In this document: positions 2,438 through 53,694 of the stretch, one piece after another
Layout: every line of letters begins with the position of its first letter
How positions within the stretch are numbered: the stretch's first letter is position 1
IMG/VR virus record: IMGVR_UViG_3300046514_000576
Coordinates: 1 to 53,694 of that record
DNA: 53,694 bases
Source of the DNA: a virus
Strand: one strand, 5' to 3'
Program-made: the position numbers and the translations under genes
Notes under the pieces: model-generated
The model's input: only the letters and a program-made list of their open reading frames with translations
What the model was told of the DNA's origin: nothing
Database searches by the model: none

Positions 2438-3464
2438 CAACACTTCGATCGAGTGGACCGATGCGAGCTGGCCGGTGACCGCCGGGTGCAAGGAGATCTC
2501 GCCCGGCTGCGCAAATTGCTACGCCGCGAAGCTCACCGCAACGCGGCTGAAACACACGCCCAAGTATCGCGGCCTCGCGGTCATTGGCGCGAACGGGCAC
2601 CCGCACTTCACGGGCGAATCAAGGCTCGCGCGCGAGCATCTCGGTTGGCCGCTCCAGTGGCGCGAGCCACGCAAGATCTTCGTCGCCGATATGAGCGATC
2701 TCTTCTACGACGCGGTCACCGACGCAGAAATCATCGAAGTGTTCGACGTGATGCGGCAGTGCGAGCGCCATACGTTTCAACTGCTCACCAAGCGCGCAGC
2801 GCGCATGCGTGATCTCTGCGGACGGCTGCGGTTCGATGGCAGCGCCAACGATGGGAACGGGCGGACGTGGCTCTCGCCCGACGCGAACAACCATGACGGC
2901 GGGTGGCCGCTGATCCGGATGGACTGGCTGTGGTACGGCGTCTCGGTCGAAAACCGCGCGACTCTTCACCGCATCGACGAATTGCGCGCGATGCCATGCA
3001 AGACGCGCTTCCTGTCGTTCGAACCGCTGCTCGAGGATCTCGGTGTGATCGACCTGACCGGGATTCACCAGGTCATCGTCGGCGGCGAGAGTGGCGGCAA
3101 CGGATCGCGCCCGATGCACCCCGTGTGGGTTCGATCGATCCGCGATCAATGCATCGCGGCCGGCGTGGCGTTCTTCTTCAAACAATGGGGCCACTATGCG
3201 CCGTTCGTCGACCCGTCGCGATTCACGCACTGCGGCGCCGAAGATCGCGCGCACACGTGGCTCGACGCGAACGGCGATTCCGGTGCGTGCTGGATCGTCG
3301 ACGATGATGGTTCGTGGTCGAACTGGACCGGCGACCCGCCATCTGGCGGCGCGGATGGAACGGTCGCGGATTCGGTCGCGATCATGTCGCCGGTCGGCAA
3401 GAAGCGCGCGGGTCGCATCCTCGACGGCCGCACGTGGGATGAGTTCCCGGCGGTGCGGACGTGA
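2430..3464 (+). CDS. Phage Gp37/Gp68 family protein (DUF5131), three-Cys motif
   Basis: The 344-residue product starts at GTG 2430. The N-terminus (NTSIEWTD, then a Cys-x6-Cys-x2-Cys cluster in GCKEISPGCANCYAAK) is the hallmark of the phage Gp37/Gp68 family (DUF5131). Further family signatures are KIFVADMSDLF, FQLLTKRA, VSVENR, RFLSFEPLL, IVGGESG and FFFKQWG. The three cysteines are spaced like an iron-sulphur site and the family is thought to be related to radical SAM enzymes, but its reaction is not established. In other genomes the family often sits beside a three-Cys-motif partner gene (tcmP); none is recognisable here. Length and motif order look intact. Confidence 0.9.
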   Translation: MADNTSIEWTDASWPVTAGCKEISPGCANCYAAKLTATRLKHTPKYRGLAVIGANGHPHFTGESRLAREHLGWPLQWREPRKIFVADMSDLFYDAVTDAEIIEVFDVMRQCERHTFQLLTKRAARMRDLCGRLRFDGSANDGNGRTWLSPDANNHDGGWPLIRMDWLWYGVSVENRATLHRIDELRAMPCKTRFLSFEPLLEDLGVIDLTGIHQVIVGGESGGNGSRPMHPVWVRSIRDQCIAAGVAFFFKQWGHYAPFVDPSRFTHCGAEDRAHTWLDANGDSGACWIVDDDGSWSNWTGDPPSGGADGTVADSVAIMSPVGKKRAGRILDGRTWDEFPAVRT

Positions 3465-3907
3465 GAATGATCTGCCCCCACAGCATCGAAAAAGACCGCG
3501 TCTGCGCGGACTGCGCAGAATCGCAAGTCGCCTTCCTTCGCGAGCGCCGCGACGCGACCCACTCGCCGCACGATTACCGCCTCGATGCGATCCCGTTCAT
3601 CGGCACTCTCGGCAGGATCGAGACCGAGTTCACCGCCGCCGTCATCATTCGTGTCTGCCAATTCCGCGACGCATGGGGCCCCGTCGAGGCGCGCGAGGTC
3701 GGCGAGCTGATCCACGCGGAGACGCGCTGGGGCCAGCGGCATGCGTGGTGGACCGCGTCGATCGGCCGAATGATCGACGTTGACGCGCTGATCGAGAACG
3801 GGTTCGCCCGACTGATCGGCGATGAATTGCTCGAACGCCAGCGTCCGATCGAGCTGACGCCGCTGTGCTTCGAGAAGCTCGAACCGTACGCGCGGAGGTT
3901 GCCGTGA
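3461..3907 (+). CDS. Hypothetical protein with N-terminal Cys/His cluster
   Basis: The start GTG 3461 overlaps the preceding TGA. The 148-residue product opens with a probable zinc-binding cluster (MICPHSIEKDRVCADC), then a helical domain with several Trp and Arg residues. I do not recognise the family. The coupled position suggests co-expression with the neighbouring accessory genes. Confidence 0.65.
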   Translation: MRMICPHSIEKDRVCADCAESQVAFLRERRDATHSPHDYRLDAIPFIGTLGRIETEFTAAVIIRVCQFRDAWGPVEAREVGELIHAETRWGQRHAWWTASIGRMIDVDALIENGFARLIGDELLERQRPIELTPLCFEKLEPYARRLP

Positions 3908-41118: not shown

Positions 41119-42855
41119 TCAGCCGAACGGATTCAGGGTGTTTGGAACCACGCGGACGGTCGTCGTCGGTCGCGGCCCGGTGAGCACCCGCCAGCCGATC
41201 GCGGCGGCGAGGATCTCGTCGTCGTGTTCACCCGGCGCCGCTTCGACCTTCCCGCTGTCGGTCCGGATGAACGCGCGCGCTTCCTGGATGAACACGAGGT
41301 CCGATGTCTTGAAGTCACCGAGCTGCACCGCGTCGACAAGGTCGTCGATCATCGGGAGCCGGTTCGAGGGGCCCGTCCAGAACCCGAGATCCGCAGTATC
41401 GGTCTTCGATGGATCGAGTCGCCAGATCCGGGGGTAGTGCAGCTCCTCGTGCAGGACATGCAGCACTGTGTGGCCGTGGTTGTTCCGCTCGACGACGATC
41501 TCCGCGAGACCGTAGGCGCGCGCGAGCCGCTCACACCATCGAGCGAACTCCGACGCAGGAACCTTCGCGCGAAGCGTTGCGACGTGCGCGCGCGACTTCC
41601 GCTCGAGCACCGGAGCAACGAGCCAGTCGCCCGCACGTTTGCCGCTCGCCGTGTCGACGGCGAGCAGATAACTACAACCGGGCGACGGCGACGCCCAAAC
41701 ACGCAGGATCGAACCGTGTCCGCGGTTCAGCGTGCGCCACAGCTCGACGAGGTTCTCGCGGAACGGCTGCGCGGGACTTTCGAGCGCGGCCTCCTGCTCG
41801 AGCGCCGCGAACGTCAATGGCGGAACGGCCGTCTTCTCGAGTCGTCCGAGCGCCGGCGCGTCGAAGTAGGAGTGACCGCTGAGGAGGAACGCGCGAATCG
41901 GATCGTGCGGGTGCTCCTGGATCGTCTTGTCGAAACCGTTCAGCGCGCGTTTCGAGCGCCACCACGCGAGCTGCGCGGCGTCGAGCGGCTCGCCGTCGGT
42001 GACGGCCGACTCGATGACCTCGGTCTCTTCGGGATCGCGCGCAACCGCTTGCGTTGGGTCGACTCCCACGCGCGCGGTCTCATCGAGCCACCACGGGAGG
42101 AACGTCAGGCGAAACCCGTTCGCACCGGCGCGCGCGCCCGTCGCGTGCTCGTAGAACACGCCGCTCGCGCCGTTCGCGGTCGACTCTTCGACGTACTCGC
42201 CGCCCTGCTCGATCGGCGGAATCGCTGCCATGATCGCCGTGACGGTCTGCTCGCCGTACTTGAACGATGCGACCTCGGTGGCGTGCACGCGGTGGTAGGT
42301 GCCGCCGCGGCCCTGCTTCTCAGCGGCTTCCTGCGTGCCGCCGGCGTCGAACACCGTGATGCTCGACCCGTTTGAAAACTGCACCGTCGGACCGGCCCAG
42401 CGGTGGCCCGTGTCGACGCCGAGGCCTTTGATCATGAACCCGAGCTGCCGGATCACCTTGTGCGCCGGCTCGTTGTGCTTATGCGGTTGCGTGACCACCG
42501 CAACCGCGACGTCCGGTCGCAGAAGCGCGAACCACAGGTCGCGCGCGAGTTCGTAGGTCGTCTCCCCGAGCTGACGTCCCTTTACGACGACGTCGCGACC
42601 GGTTCGGCGTTCGAACACGCGGCGCTGCGCCCGGTTCCAACGCAGCGGGAGCACTTCGCCAGGCACGCGTGTCGTGATCTGCACGAGGTCCGCGCAGAAC
42701 CGCTCGAACGACTCATCGCGCTCGCCTGCTTCGAAGAGCGCAACAACTCGCTTCCATGCTGCCGGCGGCTCAATGGACGGCCGGCGGCGGATCGGCCCCA
42801 GCAGACGATCCAGCCGGCGCTCCTTCCGCTCCAGTGATTCGAGCAAGTCGAGCAT
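41119..42855 (-). CDS. terL: Large terminase subunit (ATPase-nuclease)
   Basis: ATG 42855 gives 578 residues. The Walker A-like segment VVVKGRQLGETT (about 89-100) is the variant typical of TerL. The following ATPase core contains VVTQPHKH, HRVHATEVASF (Walker B/catalytic Glu region, about 185-196) and EESTANGASG. The RNase H-like nuclease domain shows LLAVDTASGK (Asp near 400), IVVERNNHG and GEHDDEILAAAIG. It pumps DNA into the procapsid. Its start lies 86 bases inside the small-terminase gene. Confidence 0.85.
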   Translation of the reverse strand: MLDLLESLERKERRLDRLLGPIRRRPSIEPPAAWKRVVALFEAGERDESFERFCADLVQITTRVPGEVLPLRWNRAQRRVFERRTGRDVVVKGRQLGETTYELARDLWFALLRPDVAVAVVTQPHKHNEPAHKVIRQLGFMIKGLGVDTGHRWAGPTVQFSNGSSITVFDAGGTQEAAEKQGRGGTYHRVHATEVASFKYGEQTVTAIMAAIPPIEQGGEYVEESTANGASGVFYEHATGARAGANGFRLTFLPWWLDETARVGVDPTQAVARDPEETEVIESAVTDGEPLDAAQLAWWRSKRALNGFDKTIQEHPHDPIRAFLLSGHSYFDAPALGRLEKTAVPPLTFAALEQEAALESPAQPFRENLVELWRTLNRGHGSILRVWASPSPGCSYLLAVDTASGKRAGDWLVAPVLERKSRAHVATLRAKVPASEFARWCERLARAYGLAEIVVERNNHGHTVLHVLHEELHYPRIWRLDPSKTDTADLGFWTGPSNRLPMIDDLVDAVQLGDFKTSDLVFIQEARAFIRTDSGKVEAAPGEHDDEILAAAIGWRVLTGPRPTTTVRVVPNTLNPFG

Positions 42856-43216
42856 CGAGCATCTTTGATGTGAGTGCGACGTCCGCGAGGATCTTCAACG
42901 CGCCGGCGATCGAGTGGATCGCCGAGGGGTCCGCTGCGTTCGCGCTCTGACTGGCCTTCGTGAGAAACGCGATCTGACCCTTGATCGCGATCGCGAGGCC
43001 GTCAGCCCACTGTCCTTCAGCAGCGCGTATTTTTGAGGCGACGAGTTCCGACAAGATCCGATCGGAGAGCGACTTCGCGCGGTATCTCTCGATGGTCCGC
43101 ACCGACAGGGTGTGTCGCTTGGCGGCGGCCTCGTCACCGAGCAACGCGGCGTCGACCAGGATCTGCGCGATCGCATTCGGATCCGTCTTCGGACCCGGCT
43201 TGCGTCGCTCGGACAT
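42770..43216 (-). CDS. terS: Small terminase subunit-like DNA-binding protein
   Basis: The start ATG 43216 gives 148 residues. The N-terminal half has a helix-turn-helix pattern (AQILVDAALLGDEAAAKRHT, LSVRTIERYRAKSL), the middle helices could oligomerise, and a Pro-rich tail overlaps the start of terL by 86 bases. TerS proteins bind the packaging site and load TerL. Direct position and HTH support this; the sequence family was not confirmed. Confidence 0.65.
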   Translation of the reverse strand: MSERRKPGPKTDPNAIAQILVDAALLGDEAAAKRHTLSVRTIERYRAKSLSDRILSELVASKIRAAEGQWADGLAIAIKGQIAFLTKASQSANAADPSAIHSIAGALKILADVALTSKMLDARLARITGAEGAPAGSSAGADPPPAVH

Positions 43217-43734: not shown

Positions 43735-43766
43735 AACGGCCCGGAGACCGAAGCCTCCGAGCCGTT
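43735..43766 (-). terminator. Intrinsic terminator ending the right-hand leftward unit
   Basis: AACGGC-c-CGGAG (43735-43746) pairs with CTCCG-a-GCCGTT (43755-43766), loop of 8, one mismatch. On the minus strand it is followed by TTTCGTTGTG. It would stop transcripts that cross the pentamer arrays before they reach the terminase genes. Confidence 0.75.
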
Positions 43767-43770
43767 CCAC

Positions 43771-43915
43771 CTTGCCTTGCCCGGCCGTGCCGCGCCGGAC
43801 CTGGCCTAATCTCGCCCGACCCAGCCAATCCGATCCGAGCCACGCCCATCCTGACCATGCCGTGCCCGATCACGCCTCGCCCGACCTAGCCGTTCCTCGG
43901 CGCGCCGCACCAGTC
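43771..43915 (-). repeat. Pentamer array 1 (29 units)
   Basis: From 43771 every fifth base is C in all 29 units (for example CTTGC, CCGGC, CGTGC, CGCGC, CGGAC), and the base before it is C in 26 of 29. The three other bases vary freely. On the minus strand the pattern is GGNNN. The period of 5 is not compatible with coding. Confidence 0.85.
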
Positions 43916-43917
43916 GC

Positions 43918-43984
43918 GGACGCCGCGAGAATCGAACTCGCGTTCAGACCACCGCGCCCATCGATCGCGCCGAAACGCGATCCC
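43918..43984 (-). ncRNA. tRNA-like double hairpin between arrays 1 and 2
   Basis: On the minus strand a 7-base stem GATCGCG / CGCGATC with a 6-base loop TTTCGG (43963-43982) is followed by a perfect T-arm-like hairpin CGCGAG-TTCGATT-CTCGCG (43924-43942). No acceptor or D arm can be built around them, so it is not a complete tRNA. A degenerate tRNA or a tRNA mimic are both possible. It interrupts the pentamer phase. Confidence 0.5.
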
Positions 43985-44143
43985 CTACCCGACCACACCA
44001 TTACCTGCCCGGCCATCGCGTGCCGCGCCACACCATTGCTCGACGAGCCCATCCCGGCCGCGCCTCTCCTTGCCCGGTCCTGCCTTGCCCTGCCGCTCCG
44101 CACCGAACCACACCCTGGCGCGCCGAACCACACCCGGCCACCA
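43984..44143 (-). repeat. Pentamer array 2 (32 units)
   Basis: C occupies the first position in all 32 units from 43984 to 44143 (for example CCTAC, CCGAC, CACAC, CTCTC, CTTGC, CGCAC). The preceding base is mostly C. Phase differs from array 1 by three positions; the array ends at hairpin X. Confidence 0.85.
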
Positions 44144-44147
44144 TGGT

Positions 44148-44178
44148 GCTCGCGGTTTGAAGTCATCGCACCGCGAGC
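44148..44178 (-). ncRNA. Hairpin X between arrays 2 and 3
   Basis: GCTCGCGGT (44148-44156) pairs perfectly with ACCGCGAGC (44170-44178); loop TTGAAGTCATCGC (plus-strand reading). Aligned without gaps to hairpin Y 117 bases away, three base pairs change on both sides (compensatory) while most of the loop and the flank CCCTTGCC are kept. Confidence 0.75.
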
Positions 44179-44255
44179 CCTTGCCATGCCGTACCCGACC
44201 TAACCCCGCCGCGCCGCGCCTGACCAAACCAGACCGGACCGGACCGGACCCCGCC
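44176..44255 (-). repeat. Pentamer array 3 (16 perfect units)
   Basis: All 16 units from 44176 to 44255 end in CC (NNNCC; for example TTGCC, ATGCC, GTACC, CGACC, TAACC, GGACC three times). This is the purest array. Confidence 0.85.
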
Positions 44256-44264
44256 GCATTGAGC

Positions 44265-44295
44265 GCCCACGAGTTGAAACCATCGCATCGTGGGC
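44265..44295 (-). ncRNA. Hairpin Y between arrays 3 and 4
   Basis: GCCCACGA (44265-44272) pairs with TCGTGGGC (44288-44295); loop GTTGAAACCATCGCA. Same length and fold as hairpin X. Ten of 40 aligned positions differ, six of them as three compensated pairs. Confidence 0.75.
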
Positions 44296-44301
44296 CCTTG
44301 C

Positions 44302-44386
44302 CCTATCCTGCCGCACCGCGCCTTGCCCTGGCGCGCCTTGCCGGAACAAGCCACTGCCAACCCCGCCTGACCAATCCCCGCCCGAA
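44302..44386 (-). repeat. Pentamer array 4 (17 units)
   Basis: All 17 units from 44302 begin with C (for example CCTAT, CCTGC, CGCAC, CGCGC, CTTGC, CAAGC). It ends at the 3' end of the gene at 44390. Confidence 0.8.
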
Positions 44387-44389
44387 TCC

Positions 44390-45022
44390 CTACGCCGCTC
44401 GACTCAGTTCGAGCCGCTGAAACTTCGCGACGCTGAATCGCCCGAACGTCGGGCGGAAGTCGCCGACGCCGACGAGACGCCCCGCGTTTGTGAGCACGTC
44501 GCTCAAGTCGGCTTCCGCGATGTACTCGGGCGTGAGCACTTGAAGCTGAATCACGACGCTCCATCCCGCACGCATCGCCGGGCGCTCGCGCGTGACTGCG
44601 TTGCGCTGAATCACGACGCGACGACGATCGAGGTAGCCCCACTCTTTCGTTCCGAGGCTCGCGAGATCCGTGATCGCGACGACGCCAGCCTTGTACAGAT
44701 CAAACGCGCTCTTGCGTGGCGAGCGTGGATCCTGACGGAACTTCGCCGCCGTGAGAATCGACTGCCGCAGATATTCGCCGGGGATCGCGAGTTCGCCGTC
44801 GTCGTTGCGATAGACGTAGCTCTCGACGTTGTCGCTCTTCTTTGCCTTCGAGTTCTTCGCGGCTTTCGACTTCTCGGCGACCGCGTCGCACGACCATCGG
44901 TGAAACAGGAACGGCGCCACGCCGGTGATCTTCACTTCGACCACATACGGGATGCCGACTTCGATGTCCGGCGCAGCGTCGTTGCTGACGTTGTTGACCG
45001 GTTCAACCTTGCCCTTTGCCAT
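44390..45022 (-). CDS. Conserved phage protein, first gene of the array-bearing unit
   Basis: ATG 45022 has ACGGAG about 8 bases upstream; an in-frame GTG at 45052 is less likely. The 210-residue product opens IPYVVEVKITGVAPFLFHRW, has a Lys-rich insert, then LAIPGEYLRQSILTAAKFRQ, an Arg-rich middle and ends GRLVGVGDFRPTFGRFSVAK. I associate this order with a widespread phage family of unknown function. The Gly-rich GVGDFRPTFGRF end recalls RAMP/Cas7-type RNA-binding folds, but that is a resemblance seen by eye. The gene runs directly into the pentamer arrays, with a putative promoter and operator upstream. Confidence 0.65.
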   Translation of the reverse strand: MAKGKVEPVNNVSNDAAPDIEVGIPYVVEVKITGVAPFLFHRWSCDAVAEKSKAAKNSKAKKSDNVESYVYRNDDGELAIPGEYLRQSILTAAKFRQDPRSPRKSAFDLYKAGVVAITDLASLGTKEWGYLDRRRVVIQRNAVTRERPAMRAGWSVVIQLQVLTPEYIAEADLSDVLTNAGRLVGVGDFRPTFGRFSVAKFQRLELSRAA

Positions 45023-45049
45023 CTGAAACTCCGTCGCGTGCGGCAACTC

Positions 45050-45106
45050 CACTCACCCGCCCACGGCGTCGAGTACGAGTCGATGGTGCGCGCGAGCGGG
45101 TGAGTG
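45050..45106. promoter_or_regulatory. Inverted repeat in leader of the array-bearing unit
   Basis: CACTCACCCGC (45050-45060) and GCGGGTGAGTG (45096-45106) form an 11-base perfect inverted repeat with a 35-base loop, upstream of the ATG at 45022. A leader stem or regulator site. Confidence 0.55.
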
Positions 45107-48046: not shown

Positions 48047-49146
48047 TGTCCACCTCCCGCGGGTCGGTTGTGTTTCGCTCGCCAGTCGCTCGCGATCGCG
48101 CCGAGGGCGGCAGTCGGCAAAACCGGCTGCGCCGGCGTCTTGATCGGCGCGGGCCCCTTCGGTTGCGTGCGCACGGGCGGCATTCGGGGCGGCAGCCCCT
48201 TCGCCTTGCGCCGCAGCGCACACTTGCTCGCGATCTGCAGCGCGGCATCGAGTCCGCCGGCCGAGTAGTTCCCGCGATCGTCAGGGCGACCGAGCATCGC
48301 TTGGAGCGAGAGCTGGCCGCGGTACTCGCGCTCGAGATCGCCCGTCAGCACCATGTCGGCCAGGACCCCAAAATCCTCGAGCGTGCAGTTCTGTCGTTCG
48401 AGCTGCGCGAGCACGCCCGCGAACCCGTCCTCGGCGGTTCCGATCAGCCGCGTGTTGATCTTGCCGCCCGACCGACGCTTCACGATCGCCTGGACGTCCG
48501 GAAGCGAAAGAACCGAAAGACCGTCCGTCCGTCCGTCCGTCCCTCCGGGGTTTGGGGTCGTCACGGTCGGGGCCGTCACGCTGGCGGGTTGCGGCGTCAC
48601 TACCCCGTGACGGCCTTGCGTCACGTCGGGGCCGTCACGGGGCGTCACGGCGAGGCCGTCACGCGCGCGCTCCGGAAGGGACGGACGGACGGATGGAATC
48701 TCTAGCTTCTTGTCTGAATTCACCGGAGAAAAGGCATCAGAAGATTCCGGCGCGCGCGCGAGTGTCGTCACGGGGCCGTCACGAAAGGCCGTCACGAGGC
48801 CGTCACGGGGCGTCACGGCGAGGCCGTCACGAGGTAGTGACGGGGCCGTCACGCTGGCGGGTTGCGGCGTCACGGTGCGTGACGGCCTTTCTGTCGTCCG
48901 CGTGACGCCGGCAGTGCCCTTCGACCGACTCGGACGACGCTTCCGGATCTCCGCAGCATGAGCCTCGCGGTACCGCCTCGCCCGTTCGGCTGGCGTGAGG
49001 GCACGACTCGACGCTTGGTCATCGTCGGGAGGGGGTGCGTCGTCGTCCGGCGGCGGCCCCTCGGTCGCGAGAAAGCGCGCGAGCCGTTCGTCGCTCAACC
49101 GGAAGAGCAGCGCGGAAGCATCTCGAAGTAGGTCCTCGCGATTCAC
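48043..49146 (-). CDS. Putative replication-type protein with repeat-rich middle
   Basis: The start GTG 49146 overlaps the RNase H stop; 367 residues. The N-terminal 40 residues are helical and acidic, residues about 45-80 basic (AERARRYREAHAAEIRKRRP). Residues 80-205 form a low-complexity stretch with repeated Arg-Asp-Gly and Val-Thr-Pro units encoded by the CGTCAC cluster. The C-terminal domain (about 205-330) is helical (LPDVQAIVKRRSGGKINTRL, EDFGVLADMVLTGDLEREYR). An initiator with its origin inside, as in lambda O, is the model; no family was recognised. Confidence 0.5.
   Translation of the reverse strand: MNREDLLRDASALLFRLSDERLARFLATEGPPPDDDAPPPDDDQASSRALTPAERARRYREAHAAEIRKRRPSRSKGTAGVTRTTERPSRTVTPQPASVTAPSLPRDGLAVTPRDGLVTAFRDGPVTTLARAPESSDAFSPVNSDKKLEIPSVRPSLPERARDGLAVTPRDGPDVTQGRHGVVTPQPASVTAPTVTTPNPGGTDGRTDGLSVLSLPDVQAIVKRRSGGKINTRLIGTAEDGFAGVLAQLERQNCTLEDFGVLADMVLTGDLEREYRGQLSLQAMLGRPDDRGNYSAGGLDAALQIASKCALRRKAKGLPPRMPPVRTQPKGPAPIKTPAQPVLPTAALGAIASDWRAKHNRPAGGGQ
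48521..48908. other. Candidate replication origin: CGTCAC/GTGACG repeat cluster
   Basis: About 20 copies of CGTCAC (or GTGACG) lie within about 390 bases. Two longer blocks each occur twice. A (GTCC)n run at 48521-48544 and a (GGAC)n run at 48678-48692 form a long inverted repeat. Synonymous choice alone would not produce this. Such clusters recall iteron origins, but no AT-rich unwinding element stands out. Confidence 0.5.

Positions 49147-53561: not shown

Positions 53562-53694
<133 letters not shown>

Follow-up and report, generated by a model that had tools for sequence, protein, structure and literature searches.

Diverging hairpin tails in a putative VIPR array of a phage contig

A viral contig with phage structural genes (IMG/VR record IMGVR_UViG_3300046514_000576, positions 1-53,694; we refer to this whole stretch of 53,694 nucleotides as the window) contains a pentamer array that adjoins a gene for a RAMP-like protein. 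We propose that this region is a phage VIPR array of vrRNAs and that two similar hairpins, Y and X, are the 3' handles of vrRNA1 and vrRNA2, respectively (probability about 0.9). The window fits VIPR in its gene, its array, its strand, the length of its units, and the position of its tails, so we consider it to be a VIPR locus. Our evidence is the homology and predicted fold of the gene product, the array itself, the linkage of such arrays to vipr on the sense strand, the position of the hairpins at the ends of runs, and covariation.

VIPR is a known kind of system, described in only one 2026 preprint in the literature that we searched; the window is a further example, with divergent, compensating tails. 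According to PMC13142463, VIPR is a phage-encoded, CRISPR-like system whose GGY/NN repeat RNAs find the DNA of rival viruses. A vrRNA consists of 9-16 YNNGG repeats and then a structured 3' tail. The NN dinucleotides recognize DNA with a one-base skip, and competing mobile elements are repressed. The preprint describes Vipr as an ancestral RAMP, and VIPR is proposed as an ancestor of CRISPR effectors. Types I-VII of VIPR are distinguished by the phylogeny of Vipr and by accessory genes. It also states that the loci "typically" include an accessory gene (vap), and that the tail is invariable within a system, which holds for the SUSP1 and P. fulva clades; in the former, the tail has a pseudoknot.

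The features of the locus, named according to the VIPR reading, are as follows. The guide regions and the last array were delimited with a parser.

44390-45052, minus strand: vipr gene (220 amino acids, phrog_4652), encoding a RAMP/Cas7-like, putative vrRNA-binding protein
44303-44382, minus strand: guide region of vrRNA1, with 16 pentamers in phase (GGYNN, four with one G) ahead of the junction pentamer
44265-44302, minus strand: vrRNA1 3' tail, the junction GGCAA-GGG and then hairpin Y
44265-44295, read as the minus strand: hairpin Y, 8-bp stem and 13-nt loop
44186-44255, minus strand: guide region of vrRNA2, with 14 perfect GGYNN pentamers ahead of the junction pentamer
44148-44185, minus strand: vrRNA2 3' tail, the junction GGCAA-GGG and then hairpin X
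44148-44178, read as the minus strand: hairpin X, 9-bp stem and 13-nt loop
44051-44139, minus strand: guide region of vrRNA3, with about 17 pentamers, of which some are degenerate
44038-44050, minus strand: possible vrRNA3 tail, the mini-hairpin GGGCTC-GTC-GAGC after GGGAT
43984-44034, minus strand: vrRNA4 guide region, about 10 pentamers
43963-43983, minus strand: possible vrRNA4 tail, the 7-bp hairpin GATCGCG-TTTCGG-CGCGATC
43918-43959, minus strand: minihelix resembling a tRNA acceptor and T-arm, GGGCGC ... GCGAG-TTCGATT-CTCGC ... GCGTCC, between arrays (from a T-arm scan)
43767-43911, minus strand: final array of 29 pentamers, which would make one or two vrRNAs
43735-43766, minus strand: probable terminator, a strong hairpin (-25 kcal/mol) that closes the array and is followed by TTTCGTT

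The protein encoded by 44390-45052 is related to the characterized system. Its family profile matches one sequence from the PDB, 36pp_D ("SUSP1 Vipr protein", E = 7.8e-13), and by BLASTP it is 28% identical to the Vipr of SUSP1 (KT454805 28474-29061, E = 5e-15). The AlphaFold model (pLDDT of 80) matches Csm3 and type VII Cas7 with Z scores of 10-11.8. Relatives of this protein are encoded by at least 315 IMG/VR contigs; they occur in many phages and bacterial genomes, including those of Phycisphaerales, Alicyclobacillus, Stenomitos, and Thermomonas. We did not recognize any conserved family of accessory (vap-like) neighbors that includes the window: the candidates were all either unrelated clusters or arrays translated in antisense. 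Among the aligned Vipr homologs, one has an Lsr2 DNA-binding domain at its N-terminus (Pfam PF23359, best E = 6.3e-15); from the length of its N-terminus, we assigned this homolog to locus L028. A fused accessory function is possible for this domain.

Directly downstream of vipr, the minus strand carries a chain of pentamers (44382-43767) that is interrupted by hairpins; the pentamers start with GG and are mostly GGYNN. The preliminary description of this DNA had noticed pentamer arrays, and they are real: on the minus strand, GG is followed by GG at a lag of 5 in 74 cases, versus a mean of 25.8 and a maximum of 47 in shuffled sequences. The units contain 17, 15, about 17, about 10, and 29 pentamers, and the last of these is probably more than one unit. 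Several pentamers in vrRNA1, vrRNA3, and vrRNA4 are imperfect. Because vrRNA1 comprises 16 pentamers, GGCAA-GGG, and Y, while vrRNA2 comprises 14 pentamers, GGCAA-GGG, and X, the spacing of 117 bases between X and Y, which was correctly reported in the preliminary description, corresponds to one vrRNA unit. We infer that the hairpins after vrRNA3 and vrRNA4 are tails as well; they are unlike X and Y, and weaker. Scans of the window for tandem and other repeats found no near-identical CRISPR direct repeats, the window proteins that we scanned had no matches to cas families, and the window has no DNA similarity to phage records.

Two other repeats in the window lie away from the array. At 48560-48880 there is a cluster of GTCACG/CGTGAC with palindromic spacing (17 of the 74 copies in the window lie within 600 bases), which might be iteron- or centromere-like. 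The right end of the contig carries the other repeat: at 53569-53691, ACCCCG occurs about 20 times and degrades into ACCGCG and ACCACG, which may be the reason that the assembly stops there.

Arrays of this type are linked to the gene: in a first set of vipr relatives from viral contigs, the same type of array adjoins the gene. In a second set of 79 further IMG/VR loci (a few of these contigs are also in the first set), 75 carry an array on the sense strand no more than 800 bp from vipr; the array is antisense in one locus and over 1.5 kb away in two. A search that ignored the gene, and required ten consecutive GGY pentamers, points the same way. Among the matches listed, 69 of 120 viral loci encode a Vipr homolog within the stretch of sequence examined around the array.

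Read as the minus strand, X is GCTCGCGGT-GCGATGACTTCAA-ACCGCGAGC, and Y is GCCCACGA-T-GCGATGGTTTCAA-C-TCGTGGGC. The ninth, innermost pair of the stem is T-A in X and is broken (T/C) in Y. The loop, GCGATG(A/G)(C/T)TTCAA, is conserved at 11 of 13 positions. As originally described, X and Y align without gaps over 40 bases with 10 differences, and six of these are accounted for by three stem pairs (pairs 3, 5, and 8) that changed on both sides. On the plus strand, these changes are T-A to C-G, G-C to A-T, and G-C to A-T. Counted from GGCAAGGG through the last base of the stem, 9 of 38 columns differ. In the register used to search the window for the 40-mers that are most similar to X, Y matches at 28/40 positions, followed by X's own reverse complement (26/40) and by the next best segment (25/40).

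The predicted folding energies are -18.2 kcal/mol for X and -14.3 kcal/mol for Y (z = -4.5 and -2.8, respectively, relative to dinucleotide shuffles). With the arms swapped, the fold is weakened or lost: the chimera of X's 5' arm with Y's 3' arm has an energy of -11.0 kcal/mol, and the reverse chimera has just -2.3 kcal/mol. When we shuffled the columns of the alignment and refolded it, three compensatory pairs arose in 1 of 1,000 trials. The paired changes fit selection that keeps the shape of the hairpin. With two sequences, such covariation is suggestive; it is the genomic context that makes the case for X and Y convincing. The preliminary description proposed selection on structure, acting either in RNA or in single-stranded DNA, and this reading is supported by the compensatory changes, the energies of the arm swaps, and the array context. 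These results also support naming the RNA strand, which is the minus strand, in the sense of vipr, with X and Y as 3' tails of vrRNAs. A pseudoknot between the loop and the 5' flank was considered and dropped, as it would have at most 3 bp, which is at chance level.

Further members of the family were found as a kind of element and not as a sequence. We searched about 350 loci with a covariance model of X and Y and found no convincing further copy, so the structure of this pair rests on two sequences. X and Y themselves score 69-71 bits, and the best scores elsewhere (21.1 bits in L105 and 20.8 bits in L130) led us to reject those two as members. Similarly, the loop pattern GGGC..TGCGATGNNTTCAA occurs in 89 stretches of viral contigs, and the best of these score 17-18 bits with the model, as expected by chance. 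Yet tails recur in a locus-specific form. By comparing the segments between runs, we found similar pairs of tails within 40 loci. In 16 of these loci, the RNAalifold structure has at least two compensatory changes (three of the 16 represent a single element seen in contigs that are nearly identical). The tail pair of L281 has five compensatory changes and that of L056 has four (each 0/1,000 shuffles); L305 has four (2/1,000) and L129 has three. The pair in L031 is weak, as its two changes were reached in 55 of 1,000 shuffles. L032 has four tails, spaced 114, 124, and 114 bases apart.

The preliminary description would be undermined by homologs that do not maintain their stems. The tails of the related arrays do keep their stems, with compensatory changes, and in one class they covary beyond every shuffle. 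This is a three-stem class (A4) that is common to L044, L280, L281, L285, L300, L305, L031, and L337. It is paired in 92.6% of cells, and its covariation score is 0.383, as compared to 0.169 for shuffled alignments (0/500) and 0.055-0.166 for slid controls. X and Y lie outside this class.

The junction before the tail recurs as well. X and Y are each preceded by GGCAA-GGG where a run ends. In 44 of 83 run ends, the final dinucleotide NN ahead of GGG is AA or AT, as compared to 15.7% inside runs; some of these run ends are from related loci, so they do not amount to 83 independent cases. The locus with the nearest Vipr to the window's, L011, carries a short hairpin that is unlike X or Y after GGTAT-GGGCCC. 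Since X and Y have no relatives and the hairpin of L011 is different, we conclude that the sequence of the tail is locus-specific, and that what recurs is the presence of a tail and the GGYAW-GGG junction.

Other kinds of separators occur in some related arrays. In L129 (minus strand) and L016, arrays are separated by a structured element of 84-85 bases, CATTTGTG..CCGCTGATCGGCG..CGCCGACATATG.., with compensatory changes between the copies and no Rfam match to the element at either locus; it could be an unrecognized ribozyme or a large tail. L016 also has, away from its array, a match to the twister-P5 ribozyme (3392-3468, minus strand; 40 bits, above the gathering score) and one Rfam match to a tRNA. 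In L117 (minus strand), about seven runs of 10-13 pentamers are joined by a constant GGCTAATGG with a three-base phase shift and no hairpin. These runs are possibly staggered vrRNAs.

Hairpins that resemble a tRNA T-arm (N5-TTCRANN-N5', some with an acceptor-like outer stem) are found inside vrRNA arrays. They include 43918-43959 in the window (minus strand), three minihelices around 4260-4600 in L056 (minus strand), and 6715-6755 in L029. Their density is 6 per 100 kb in sense arrays, 0 in antisense arrays, and 0.74 per 100 kb elsewhere, though 4 loci are too few to prove an enrichment. Neither ARAGORN nor Rfam calls a tRNA at the window's minihelix, and ARAGORN detects none in the rest of the window or in the other loci with T-arms. 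These hairpins could be processing sites for RNase P or tRNase Z, or remnants of tRNAs.

Could X and Y be signals for processing between vrRNAs, as a host nuclease site or a self-cleaving ribozyme, and be absent from the mature RNA? They do sit between arrays, a T-arm-like minihelix lies further along, and PMC13142463 reports arrays interspersed with hammerheads in some VIPR types. However, neither hairpin has a hammerhead core, and Rfam identified no known RNA family or ribozyme over the array region, whether at gathering scores or at E values up to 10, and no ribozyme in the arrays of 18 related loci at gathering scores. Also, the SUSP1 vrRNAs were sequenced, and the equivalent hairpin is retained as their tail (PMC13142463). 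We therefore consider this explanation unlikely. Terminators or attenuators between vrRNA genes are a poorer fit still: the stems are GC-rich and the last array does end in a terminator-like hairpin, but no run of T follows the stem of X or Y on either strand, a terminator scan omits both, and the conservation of the 13-nt loops goes against this role. We consider it very improbable.

The array also lies just upstream of terminase genes: the large subunit is at 41119-42855, and the preceding gene (42770-43216) is likely the small subunit, given its position and HTH-like start. This location is what one might expect of a packaging site (pac or cos) or a replication element that acts as DNA. But a DNA site needs no strand bias, and the arrays flank vipr strand-specifically (75 of 79 loci, with 1 antisense); furthermore, the loci are spread over many phages and bacterial genomes. 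We give this explanation almost no weight.

In the VIPR reading, the steps of transcription, processing, binding by Vipr, and targeting of the DNA of competing elements are inferred from PMC13142463. Transcription of the array would use the minus strand, probably jointly with vipr, to give several vrRNAs of roughly 110-120 nt each. The GGYNN run would be the guide, with NN pairing to the target DNA and one target base skipped between dinucleotides. Vipr would coat the run of pentamers. The 3' hairpin (Y for vrRNA1 and X for vrRNA2) would serve as the handle and would cap the ribonucleoprotein or hold it in position, a role comparable to that of the repeat handle of crRNAs. The tail pairs within a locus presumably descend from a common copy and were kept functional by compensatory change. 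We looked for targets of vrRNA1 and vrRNA2 with the 1-nt-skip rule, using exact patterns from the 3' half or the middle, and found 0, 0, 0, and 2 chance-like matches; matches between guides and targets within related loci were no better than for shuffled guides.

Relative to PMC13142463, the GGYAW-GGG junction before the tails, the locus-specific tails, and the T-arm-like separators are possibly new. We tentatively suggest, while leaning towards doubt, that the handle is not fixed in this clade: each locus would have its own, compensating handle, some arrays would be mixed, and T-arm-like minihelices could recruit the host's RNase P or tRNase Z, which would separate the vrRNAs by cleavage. If so, the GGYAW-GGG junction, rather than the sequence of the hairpin, would mark the end of the guide. 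The window's locus and its relatives form a distinct and widely distributed clade of Vipr with a natural series of vrRNA tails. The tail pairs within loci are natural compensatory mutants for studying how Vipr recognizes the handle, and the junction helps to define the end of the guide for target prediction.

The closest known system is the VIPR of Escherichia phage SUSP1. Both loci encode a Vipr of the RAMP family, with GGY/NN vrRNAs that adjoin vipr on the same strand, and both have units of about 100-120 nt in which the last pentamer and GGG lead into a structured 3' tail. In our reading, the SUSP1 array (KT454805) has a run, GGTAT-GGG, and a hairpin tail. The window has a Vipr/RAMP homolog, a GGY/NN array with variable NN that flanks it on the same strand, and a viral genome, and X and Y provide the structured 3' tail. 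In contrast to SUSP1, where vap sits between vipr and the array, the array in the window directly follows vipr. By our reading, the SUSP1 tail could form a GTAG/CTAC pseudoknot, while X and Y each have one long stem and a 13-nt loop. The window's Vipr is distant from that of SUSP1, and its tails are heterogeneous instead of invariable, with 9 of 38 positions differing between X and Y and more for the other tails. The RAMPs of class 1 CRISPR-Cas systems (Csm3, Cmr4, and type VII Cas7) share the predicted fold of the window's protein and an RNA scaffold with a structured handle, but they are only about 10% identical to it, and the window has gapped guide units of 5 nt, with no CRISPR repeats or cas genes seen. 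CRISPR direct repeats also place hairpin handles between variable guide segments, whereas the guides in the window are periodic GGYNN and the handles diverge within the array by compensatory change.
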